Source: Hydra vulgaris (lineage: Eukaryota; Cnidaria; Hydrozoa; Anthoathecata; Hydridae). From it: a stretch of DNA of 64,000 nucleotides. The position numbers were made by a program, and so were the translations under genes. The notes under the pieces are model-generated. The model had not been told where the DNA came from and did no database searches. It was given only the letters and a program-made list of their open reading frames with translations. The stretch is from the NCBI RefSeq assembly GCF_038396675.1, contig NC_088927.1:39370001-39434000 (forward strand). The letters are read 5' to 3'. Numbering within the stretch: position 1 is the stretch's first letter; each line of letters begins with the position of its first letter. Below, piece after piece: positions 6,701 through 10,655 of the stretch.

Positions 6701-9700
6701 TTGACTCTTAATATGAAGCTTATCAGTATTAACATCTATTGGCTGGAGTAGTTCTATTGGTACATGGTTAGCATTTATGTTTGTAAAGTATTACATTTTT
6801 GTGTGATGTTTTTGCTCTAATTTAGAATAACATATATCAAAATATAACCATGGAAGAGATAAAACATCAGATTTACAGTGAATTTCATTCTGTTTCACTA
6901 ACCGATAGAGATGTTCTTGAAGCTTTAGATATAAATCCTGATTATACTCTCCAGAATAATTTTGCTGAAGATGAATCAGTTGGTGAGTTTTTTACTTAAA
7001 ATCTGTATAGAATTAAAGTACTTAAAAATAAAAAAAAGTTTTTTAATTTAAAAACTTTACTCTCAAACCCTATTTACAAATCTGCAACCTGATTTCTTTA
7101 AGTCATTATGGTTAATTAAAATGGTTTAAAAAGTTTAAATGAATGCTTGTCTTGAATTAAAAAAAAGTTTAATATTTTCTCTTTATTGAATCAGAATCAA
7201 ATTTTATATTTGGGTTCTTACTCATAATGAAAATTGTTTAATTTAACTTTTTTTACTATGAAAAAGGCATACATTTTTGAACTAAGTTAAAGTTTTATCT
7301 GGTATGCTAAATCAATACAAACTATATGTAGAAAAAAATTTGACTTGAATTCAAGATAAATACAAAAAAAACTAAGCAAAAAAGATTTTTAGTATGAACT
7401 TTATTCTTTAGAATCTTAAAATGCTTTTGAACTTGTTCACAGTTAGCTCAATTTATATTAATTATATTTGTTCATTCACCTAATTTATATTAATTATATT
7501 TTTTCATTCACTTCATTTAACAAGTTAACAGTTTCTTATGTTAAAAGCTTCTATTTTTTTCTGCAAGCAAAATTAAAGACTTTGTTTTAGTTTTAAATGT
7601 TAAAATATTAAAATAAAATTTAATATTTTCTAATTAATTCGAAAATAATTCTCAAAATTTTTTTTTAATAGTTGTTAAATTTAAAAATTGAGTAACTGTT
7701 AATTAATTTATTGAGAACTTGTTGACTTGATTTAATATTAAAATTGTTCATTTAAATTTAAAATTCGATAATTATATCCAGTTTTGAGTGATTTCTTTCT
7801 AACCTTTCAGTTTAGTTTTTATTTTAGTAAATTATTTTCTGATTATTTTGTTTTTTAGATATTTTTTAGTTTTTATTTTAAAAAATAAAGTTGATTTTGT
7901 TTTAATTTGTTTTTATTTTTGATTGTTTGATTTTAATTTTGATTGTTTGGAATTTCGTCATTTCTAAATATTTTTGAACTAATTTCAATGTCTTCATTCA
8001 TTTGCTTCTGAATTAGAAAATAGGGCTCAGTGACTATGAAAAAGAAACCTAAAAAGGAAAAAGTTCATACATCATTAATAACAATAATATAAACTGTGAC
8101 AATTGATTGAAACATCAATTGTAGACTCAATAACAGATGTTGTGCTATAACAGCTATAAATGTTTTTATAATAGCATTGTTTGCTTATTAATGTATATAA
8201 CTTTTATTAAGTGTTATTTAATAAATAATTTTGCAATAATCTGATTTATCAAGTTTATTTTGAATTGATTTTGTTATTGATTCTATAATATATGGCAGTA
8301 AACCATTCCAAACTTCTACATGAAAACAAATTATATTTAGCTTACAGTATGTCTTTTATGAACTTTTTTTTTTTTTTTTATGTGGTTATGACCAAAAAAA
8401 ATTTAATGTTTTAATTGAGCTTTACATAGAGTCATTTATCCAGTTAATCTCCTCATAACCTTTCTGTATTTTATATTGAAATCAATATAAAACAAAATCT
8501 TTTTTGAAAAACTTCTTTTTTTAAAAGGTGTTAAACTTTTTTTAAAGTTTTGTAGCTTTTTTTGTACTTTTTTCAACTTTAAAATGTCTAGTTTCAGATA
8601 ACCATTCTTTAGGTACAGCAATGTATGAGTTTTTCTTTAATTTTAACTTAAAGTCAGCAATTTAGAAATATACTTTTGAAAGTTCATGTTTCAAAATGTT
8701 TTGAAGAAAACCAAAGAAAACAAAAACATACTGTTACTTTAGTTAACAAATTTTGTCTAATGTTAGATGAAATTAAACCAAATTCAATTTCATGAAAATA
8801 TTTAACCAAAAACACAAATATTTTTTTCTCGAACTTGTTTTGAGAAGTCAAGTAAAAAATTACCTTTAAAATCTAATTTTTAGCAAAAAATTAAAATTTC
8901 GTAAAAAATTGAACTTTTTTAACAATGGTAGTTAAGTTTTTTTATTACTGTTGTTAAATAATTTAAATATGATGCTTTCTAAATGTCACATAAGCAATAT
9001 TATTAAAGACTATTTAAATAATTCAAAAATATCAAATTTAGTACAACAAAAATGGTACAAGAGATAAATAGCTCTTTTTGTAATAAAAATGCTTTTTAAC
9101 AAGTCTGCAAATAATATAAGTAGGGTATAATATTTAATCTATTTTATTTTGTGTAATGTTGTGAATAGTATTAAATTTAATTATATTTTTAAAATGTAAT
9201 TTTTATTTTTTTATTTCAACTTTTATTCATAAGCTTGTTTTACTTCTTTTATTATATAGGAGTGGACGAATTGACACAACAATTTTGTTTTACTTCTTTT
9301 ACTATATAGGAGTGGACGAATTGACACAACAATTTTGTTTTACTTCTTTTACTATATAGGAGTGGACGAATTGACACAACAATTTTGTTTTACTTCTTTT
9401 ACTATATAGGAGTGGACGAATTGACACAACAATTTTGTTTTACTTCTTTTACTATATAGGAGTGGACGAATTGACACAACAATTTTGTTTTACTTCTTTT
9501 ACTATATAGGAGTGGACGAATTGACACAACAATTTTGTTTTACTTCTTTTACTATATAGGAGTGGACGAATTGACACAAAAATTTTGTTTTACTTCTTTT
9601 ACTATATAGGAGTGGACGAATTGACACAACAATTTTGTTTTACTTCTTTTACTATATAGGAGTGGACGAATCGACACAACAATTTTGTTTTACTTCTTTT

Positions 9701-10655
9701 ACTATATAGGAGTGAACGAATTGACACAACAATTTTGTTTTACTTCTTTTACTATATAGGAGTGAACGAATTGACACAACAATTTTGTTTTACTTCTTTT
9801 ACTATATAGGAATGAAGGAATTGACACAACAATTTTGTTTTACTTCTTTTACTATATAGGAGTGAACGAATTGACACAACAATTTTGTTTTACTTCTTTT
9901 ACTATATATTTTACTATATATTTTTTAGGAGTGAACGAATTGACACAACAATTAGTAAATGAGAAAAATAAATGCAAGCTTGCGCAAGGATTAGTCAGAA
10001 GTTATGGCAAGATATCAGATCGCTTGAATAAAATGCTTGCGTTTTTAGAAAATCAAAAGAGCATGCATAAAAAGCAATGCTTTGAATCTAATCATATGTT
10101 TAATAACTTGGAGAAAGCAGCAATTGAAAAATGTATGCTATTTTTTTGAAGAAATCTTTTTTATATTAATTATATTAAAAAATAAACTTATATAGAGCTA
10201 ATAAAAAATAATAAAAACACATTAGAGAAACTTTATTCTGTTTTTTTATTAATTAGGTAAACGTGCTAAATGTAATGAGAAACAACGTCAAGAGTTTGTT
10301 TTCTTAGCTCATAGTCTTACTCATGGTAAATTTTTTGTTTGTTTGTGATTATTGATTTTATTTTAATTTAATTTTTTTTTTTAATTTATTTTAATTTAAT
10401 GTTTTTTTTTTGATTTTTTACTAAGCCCATATGATGCGAATTAAAAAGTTAGACGAAGACTTTGAACTTATTGGAAAGAGACTCATCAAAAGAGAAAGAG
10501 ACATGATGTCTAAAAAAATTAGTAGAAATGGTCTGACTGTTAAAAAGTTTTTGTCTAAACTTAAATATTCCACAGAAACTGCATCTTTACTTCCAAGCAA
10601 ACCAAAAGCATACAGGTCAAACTTAAATGCATCATTTAAGGTAGAGTTCAATTGA
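771..10655 (+). CDS. Multi-exon gene of unknown function, 5' partial
   Basis: Seven exons with GT-AG borders and compatible phases: 771-868, 1001-1432, 3289-3462, 6826-6982, 9929-10132, 10257-10325 and 10426-10655 (stop TGA). They sum to 1362 coding bases after a split first codon, giving 453 residues. Exon 771 is Lys/Ala-rich. Exon 1001 is amphipathic helical, with a segment around [10 protein letters not shown] that faintly recalls repeat domains of cnidarian secreted proteins. Exon 3289 has a run of Asp/Asn codons (GAT repeats). The last four exons are a charged, coiled-coil-like region ([20 protein letters not shown]). The internal ATG at 6850 could start a separate smaller gene, but the frame is open upstream and phase 0 joins exon 3289-3462 to exon 6826. 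I recognise no catalytic motif and assign no function. The third intron begins just before a long (TA)n tract. Confidence 0.68.
1670..2960 (+). mobile_element. mariner/Tc1-type DNA transposon, full length
   Basis: Terminal inverted repeats of about 28 bp (left ACGGGTGATGCGGAAGTTAT, mirrored at 2933-2960, one mismatch) are flanked by TA dinucleotides at 1668-1669 and 2961-2962, the usual target duplication of this superfamily. The 1291-bp body carries one broken transposase. It sits in the intron between exons 1001-1432 and 3289-3462 of the left gene, in the gene's orientation. Confidence 0.9.
1805..2842 (+). pseudogene. mariner-like DDE transposase, frameshifted
   Basis: The start ATG at 1805 opens an N-terminal helix-turn-helix part ([15 protein letters not shown]), which shifts frame in the A-run at 1879-1891. 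The central part continues to about 2085 and shifts again into the 2088-2699 frame. The catalytic domain shows IDDEKYF (first Asp), [10 protein letters not shown] (second Asp) and [11 protein letters not shown] (Glu). Exactly 36 residues lie between the second Asp and the Glu, a DD36E-type spacing as described for the Incomer group; that group name is inference. A last shift near 2695 leads to the C-terminal [12 protein letters not shown] and a stop at 2842. At least three frameshifts make it inactive as written. Confidence 0.85.
2968..3056. repeat. Short tandem repeat, TATCTCTGATTG core
   Basis: Four to five imperfect copies of a TATCTCTGATTG(TATAATATA) unit directly beside the mariner insertion. 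Confidence 0.7.
3470..3985. repeat. (TA)n tract with TCTA interruptions
   Basis: It starts with TCTA tetranucleotides, then about 500 bases of TA with scattered TCTA, TACACA and TATG breaks. It lies at the 5' side of the intron after the Asp-rich exon. Long Tyr-Ile open frames here are artefacts of the repeat. Confidence 0.97.
4192..5600 (-). pseudogene. Transposon-associated DUF7869-like gene relic
   Basis: Reverse-strand fragments read in order along a family common in cnidarian and insect genomes: [12 protein letters not shown] near 5440, HPAKKV near 5330, a middle part with FPVVESHYC and [13 protein letters not shown] (about 4970-4740), then [23 protein letters not shown] and a domain with [16 protein letters not shown] and [20 protein letters not shown] (4596-4192). 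The Asp of WSDSC and the GHS..E..AAHS block fit the RNase-H-like core I remember for DUF7869. Several stops and frame changes are present. It lies antisense in an intron of the left gene. Confidence 0.6.
5680..5841. repeat. (TA)n microsatellite
   Basis: Nearly pure TA with one TTTT break near 5775. Confidence 0.97.
6029..6112. repeat. G-run and C-run pair
   Basis: A G-rich stretch (6029-6043) faces a 14-base C-run (6099-6112) in otherwise AT-rich intron. A second C-rich patch lies at 6453-6470. The facing runs could pair, but no family is recognised. Confidence 0.6.
6983..9240. other. Intron sequence, no other feature seen
   Basis: AT-rich intron between exons 6826-6982 and 9929-10132. A near-duplicate of a 37-base block occurs at about 7447-7483 and 7484-7520. 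No coding-like frame is seen on either strand. Confidence 0.6.
9241..9928 (+). repeat. 50-bp tandem array of duplicated 3' splice sites (13 units)
   Basis: Thirteen head-to-tail units of 50 bp. Each contains a pyrimidine-rich tract, TATATAG and then the first 23 bases of the following exon (GAGTGAACGAATTGAC...). The duplicated exon start recurs every 50 bp from 9260 to 9860, and the true exon begins at 9929. Units 1-9 read GTGGAC; units 10, 11 and 13 read GTGAAC like the functional exon, and unit 12 is a GAATGAAGG variant. The last unit is lengthened by 19 bp and lacks the TAG between units. The array clearly grew by duplication of the intron-exon border. Confidence 0.95.

Follow-up and report, generated by a model that had tools for sequence, protein, structure and literature searches.

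What happens to a transcript when the 3' splice site of one of its introns is preceded by thirteen near copies of itself? The question is raised by a 50-bp minisatellite in a 64,000-nucleotide stretch of the Hydra vulgaris genome (assembly GCF_038396675.1, contig NC_088927.1, positions 39,370,001 to 39,434,000 of the forward strand; termed the window and numbered from its first base), where the array closes a 2.9-kb intron of a predicted gene. Thirteen near-identical 50-bp units stand before acceptor 9928/9929, an observation confirmed here, giving 14 acceptors in total (13 extra ones and the native site), as had been proposed by a reading made from the letters alone, termed the sequence-only reading. 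The explanation that we hold, from the sequence, with somewhat better than even confidence is that the minisatellite has captured a 3' splice site and supplies decoy acceptors, probably lowering productive splicing, as a tolerated by-product. How one AG is chosen has more often been asked of pairs of sites. Fourteen near-identical acceptors, twelve of which would lead to an early stop in the same way, offer a natural experiment on whether the first AG, the AG with the strongest tract or the AG nearest the exon is chosen, and the locus illustrates how repeat expansion could place a gene under splicing load. If array length varies among individuals, an in vivo dose-response would be available for splice-site competition and nonsense-mediated decay (NMD).

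The array and the exon behind it

The array and the gene model are composed of the following features.

6826-6982, forward strand: upstream exon, predicted coding exon 1, with the ATG at 6850, the donor TTG/GTGAGT and one codon base passed on
9235-9884, forward strand: thirteen tandem 50-bp units, the consensus having TTTAC branch-like motifs, a pyrimidine tract, a TATATAG acceptor and 25 exon-start bases
9235-9284, forward strand: unit 1, putative acceptor AG ending at 9259, with a T at -8 that departs from the unit consensus
9835-9884, forward strand: unit 13, with a putative acceptor (9859) that keeps the frame of the exon and would add 23 residues
9885-9928, forward strand: last intronic stretch and native acceptor, where a 12-bp sequence (TTTTACTATATA) is duplicated in tandem and a T run precedes the AG
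9929-10132, forward strand: exon 2, with the donor T/GTATGC; a relative shares 60 of 69 residues
10257-10325, forward strand: exon 3 (predicted)
10426-10640, forward strand: exon 4 (predicted)
10747-10800, forward strand: exon 5 to the stop codon inclusive (predicted)

Tandem Repeats Finder places the array at 9235-9908 with a period of 50, 13.5 copies and 98% matches without indels. Each unit opens with 25 intron-like bases, which end in TATATAG, and closes with 25 exon-start bases, with the acceptor AGs ending at 9259 + 50k (k = 0-12) and the exon's own AG at 9928. In units 10, 11 and 13 the exonic 25 bases are those with which the exon begins at 9929; in the remaining ten units one or two of them differ. 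The exon-start hexamer is GTGGAC in units 1-9, GTGAAC in units 10, 11 and 13 as in the exon, and ATGAAG in unit 12. The unit had been described as a copy of the intron end plus 23 exon bases, with GTGAAC in the 3'-most units; the tandem intron-end/exon-start composition is borne out, the exonic part is 25 bases long, the intronic half copies the native intron end only inexactly, and GTGAAC holds for units 10, 11 and 13 with unit 12 as the exception. At the junction between units exon CAATT meets intron TTGTTTTAC with no shared or added bases. Pyrimidine tract, AG and exon start are present in all 13 units, as in a duplication of a 3' splice site, and the head-to-tail arrangement of a unit in the 10-100-bp range at high identity (13.5 x 50 bp, 98%) is that of a minisatellite. 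An 18-base unit core has 13 matches in the array at one mismatch or fewer and a single other match in the 64 kb, with three mismatches, against a chance expectation of 0.13 matches at up to three mismatches across the whole window.

In the consensus unit TTTAC occurs twice and TTGAC once, together with a U-rich tract and UAG. TTTAC and TTGAC fit the loose branch-site pattern of animals, and as far as the sequence goes nothing bars the use of these motifs, the tract and the UAG of a unit. Two GT dinucleotides occur in the consensus unit, GTTTTA in the intronic half and GTGGAC or GTGAAC in the exonic half, and both are poor donors by eye. The native intron end differs from a unit by 19 extra bases before the AG, formed by a T run and the 12-bp duplication (2.3 copies at 9897-9924, directly before the native acceptor), and because this stretch intervenes unit 13 and the native site are spaced by 69 instead of 50 bases. 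The T run abuts the native AG (TATATTTTTTAG), where the units read TATATAG instead. As a separate observation, TAGGAG, a double acceptor of the NAGNAG type, occurs at the native site and in 12 of the 13 units (for example 9257-9262 and 9926-9931), with unit 12 as the exception; use of its second AG would remove three bases and keep the frame.

A search with the open frame around exon 2 gave one hit among 15 candidates, a protein of 94 amino acids from a 6735-base public contig (P0121, E = 5e-33). Of 69 residues, P0121 shares 60 with exon 2, and it stays in the same frame across the acceptor (L-G) as well as across the donor (EKCM). Both the exon and its phase are thus conserved, hence on sequence grounds this is a real exon, and since P0121 conserves it in the phase left by exon 6850-6982, that phase is independently backed; the upstream exon passes one base on and exon 2 requires one, which supports joining the two. 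Beyond the conserved exon the structure of the gene is a prediction. Five coding exons (6850-6982 to 10747-10800) with GT-AG borders are predicted to form one frame of 224 residues, for which first-order models of window or exon composition give a chance of about 1e-8, a figure that overstates the case because the exon borders were chosen. The GC content of the exons is 0.316-0.348 compared with 0.100-0.221 for the four introns. A scan of 6991-9234 for GTRAG donors gave none, which is weak evidence for this junction with the upstream exon because the gene's other donors are GTATG, GTAAA and GTAGA. A search with the full-length 224-residue protein gave no hit at E <= 1 among 165 candidates, Pfam gave sub-threshold matches only for this protein and none for the exon-2 frame, the PDB offered nothing credible for the predicted protein (two matches, E 0.34 and 0.38), and Rfam had no match at gathering score. 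Exact-pattern scans of viral and genome contig collections, from which the window's own genome is possibly excluded, also gave no match.

Predicted outcome of each acceptor

With one base carried over from the upstream exon, every one of units 1-12 would be read for 16 codons and then meet a TAG that is itself the acceptor of the next unit, exactly as the sequence-only reading had it. Unit 13 (acceptor 9859) is without a stop and adds 69 nucleotides, or 23 codons, before the native site; the inserted 23 residues are hydrophobic in their second half. This in-frame acceptor is absent from the discussion in the sequence-only reading, and with it two of the 14 sites, unit 13 and the native one, are predicted to be productive in the conserved phase. 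In the other phases almost nothing remains open: with zero bases carried a stop is met at all 14 sites, at 13 of them within four codons and at unit 9 after 49, and with two bases carried at 13 of 14.

A stop upstream of further introns is the arrangement that usually triggers NMD in animals. The premature TAGs (9307 to 9857) are placed 273-823 bases before the exon 2 donor with three further introns predicted downstream, and on the predicted gene model the layout is thus of this type, the stops of units 1-12 preceding further exon junctions. Because the stop after 16 codons precedes the next exon junctions, transcripts joined to units 1-12 would be non-productive and probably decayed. In a model of even competition among 14 equal sites two choices in 14 are productive, and a simple scanning model loses over half of the productive output when the use per decoy exceeds 5.6%.

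Explanations for the array

The proposed sequence of events begins with a short tandem duplication across the 3' splice site of the 2.9-kb intron, which would then have grown to 13 units, mainly on the 5' side, in the manner of minisatellites. Every unit would bring a complete-looking acceptor, from the branch-like motifs and the U-rich tract to UAG and the 25 exon-start bases, so that the spliceosome would meet 13 extra acceptors ahead of the native site. A transcript joined at the native site would encode the 224-residue protein, and one joined at unit 13 a protein with 23 more residues. On balance the array is likely to reduce the yield of productive mRNA, in a way that depends on copy number and is tolerated rather than selected. 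Decoy use, decay, lowered yield and neutrality are what we infer from this arrangement, partial decoy use with some loss of output being, from the sequence, the likeliest state. Of the two roles that had been offered for the array, tuning of expression through NMD and a tolerated product of slippage, the second is favored.

Precedents from human genes point both ways. In excerpts of PMC8137991, a duplicated 8-bp donor in OCT1 diverts 38-52% of minigene transcripts and 0.3-0.6% in liver, and duplication homozygotes have a median of 35% less protein, with only 9% of the variability explained. In excerpts of PMC2630376, the distal site of the CBS 844ins68 duplication is strongly favored and the mRNA of carriers is normal. 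By analogy, and as far as these excerpts go, the two closest precedents are in conflict, the distal preference at 844ins68 standing against the diversion at the OCT1 donor.

Several points weigh against decoy use. In the scanning model, decoys used freely would leave the gene nearly off. The units may be weaker acceptors because the native T run adjoins the AG and the units have TATATAG. A duplicated acceptor can be silent, as the normal mRNA described for 844ins68 carriers indicates. In the folding model the mean unpaired fraction of the native tract is toward the open end (0.55, compared with 0.33-0.62 for the 13 units in a narrow setting and 0.32-0.54 in a wide one). The last three points would suit a minisatellite that is silent in splicing, with only 9929 used and the units forming inert intron, for which we see a smaller yet appreciable chance. 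The same account draws on the last 20 or so bases of the native intron, which differ from the units and include the stronger-looking U run, and on the folding of the array described below.

The exon start AGGAGUGGA can pair with the tract of the next unit UUUUACUUCU (9258-9300), and a regular row of hairpins is possible. Such a pairing might shield the decoys, and the unit hairpin is calculated at -10.3 kcal/mol, with equally stable structures in 0.6% of 1000 shuffles, although it was selected after the fold had been inspected. The fold stability of the whole array (z -10.4) mostly reflects repetition, since a control that keeps the repetition by tiling shuffled units reduces it to z -1.7, with 6.8% of 500 as stable. 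Accessibility gives a mixed answer in these models. Over the six bases that surround the AG the native site is slightly the more open (0.034 and 0.022, compared with at most 0.022 and 0.018 for the units), yet the 10-base stretch at -14 to -5 of the native site is as closed as that of the units or more (0.007 and 0.005, compared with 0.010-0.167 and 0.002-0.111).

A stricter form of decoy use makes the array a dial, in which each 50-bp unit would divert a fixed share of transcripts to decay, array length would set the amount of protein in each individual and unit 13 would provide a second, in-frame isoform; this we consider doubtful.

Position 6 of the exon is G in units 1-9 and A in units 10-13 and the exon, and because an N codon, which requires A, is present in the exon as well as in P0121, A is probably the older state, with the G type having spread on the 5' side. 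The amplification at the 5' side that had been suggested from the hexamers fits this pattern. Beyond the G/A split only five private substitutions occur in 650 bp, one each in units 1, 7 and 9 and two in unit 12, four of the five being in the exonic half. With so few changes and one split into blocks of nine and four units, a recent expansion or strong homogenization is suggested. The 36 bases (12 codons) of P0121 preceding the exon score 13.9-14.9 against the four of the 13 units that were tried, with a shuffled mean of 18.6. Their dissimilarity to the units tried is a hint, short of proof, that the array is derived. P0121 may equally have a unit that has diverged, or one set further upstream by the 69 bases seen in the window. 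Against the native intron end the same 36 bases score 19.4, with 43% of 300 shuffles at least as good, and in a second control, 25% of 160 stretches of the window that end in TTTAG equalled or bettered that score. Homology of these upstream bases to the array or to the native intron end was also considered as a candidate and is unsupported, the scores lying below the shuffled mean for the units tried and within reach of the shuffled and control sequences for the native end.

A selected rheostat, in which the number of decoys sets expression through NMD and is maintained or tuned by selection, has in its favor that the AG is intact in all 13 units, with four of the five private substitutions exonic. 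One change against four is far too few to speak of constraint, however, young homogenized arrays look intact anyway, and the 36 bases upstream of the exon in P0121 are unlike a unit; the proposal is improbable. Equally hard to credit is a damaged allele, with the gene in practice silenced by the array in this individual or line. If the first AG after a branch point lying before unit 1 were preferred, most transcripts would end up at decoys, and in the model 50% use per decoy leaves 0.02% productive. Against it, the five predicted coding exons are open and exon 2 is conserved with P0121, yet a young array would have left little time for decay. An artefact of assembly is very unlikely: the copy number of 98%-identical arrays is often misassembled, but ordered private variants and a block structure are unexpected from random misassembly. 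Least credible of all is intron birth, with an acceptor and a cryptic donor (GGA/GTGAAC) in each unit and stepwise removal leaving GA each time, since although three steps restore an open frame and a potato gene gained an intron by a like duplication with a recruited exonic cryptic donor (excerpts of PMC4974935), GTGAAC and GTGGAC look poor as donors, the implied exons are 2 nucleotides long and one, two or four steps lead to stops.

Known systems and other features of the window

The human CBS gene offers two comparisons. By the title of a 2002 paper by Romano, 844ins68 reportedly concerns a 3' splice site, and a 31-bp variable number tandem repeat (VNTR) is said, in a 2001 title by Lievers, to be associated with reduced CBS activity. 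The VNTR, at exon 13/intron 13, occupies the end of the intron that has the donor, and the donor is what its units multiply, whereas here it is the acceptor that is multiplied. In excerpts of PMC2630376 the VNTR is likewise a multi-copy minisatellite running from exon into intron (c.1444_1467+7, 16-21 units), and 844ins68, a 68-bp tandem duplication, likewise crosses a border, that of intron 7 and exon 8, and places two splice sites close together, which that text words as donor sites. The CBS insertion has one extra 68-bp copy and a known splicing outcome, compared with 13 extra 50-bp copies here.

In the potato RdRp gene, according to excerpts of PMC4974935, a border-crossing duplication carries a branch site TTTAC, a pyrimidine tract and an acceptor, as here. 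There is one extra copy in that case and an exonic GTAAG donor made a new intron confirmed by RNA reads, whereas the present units are without a good donor. The same excerpts describe 24-bp multiple tandem duplications in fission yeast (Zhu and Niu), which likewise have several copies with splice signals, though what is duplicated there is an AGGT segment within an exon, and the introns extend across two or four copies, unlike the arrangement here. The OCT1/SLC22A1 variant rs35854239 likewise duplicates a splice site and leads to a premature stop and lower expression (excerpts of PMC8137991), but as two copies of an 8-bp donor it differs from an acceptor array. Border duplications with one extra copy, and a multi-copy exon-into-intron minisatellite in CBS, are thus already known from these partial texts; a word-based look at the titles and abstract starts of open-access papers found no case of a 13-copy acceptor array.

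A second 50-bp minisatellite is present at 35263-35560 (6 copies, 78%), better described by a higher-order period of 100 bp (87%). A fragment of a Tc1-like transposase (DDE_3) occupies 54707-55285; its closest protein is 92% identical, comes from a 420-kb contig and represents 229 member sequences, so the family is perhaps young and present in high copy. A reverse transcriptase fragment (RVT_1, E 5e-13) is found at 47818-48144, and by eye the adjoining frames up to 49133 look like parts of the same element, of the kind without long terminal repeats. A DUF4371 frame at 18344-19033 is presumably part of a transposase of the hAT kind. As would suit a small animal genome such as that of Hydra, the window as a whole has, besides the Tc1-like and reverse transcriptase fragments, a GC content of 27%, long TA runs and apparent spliceosomal introns.

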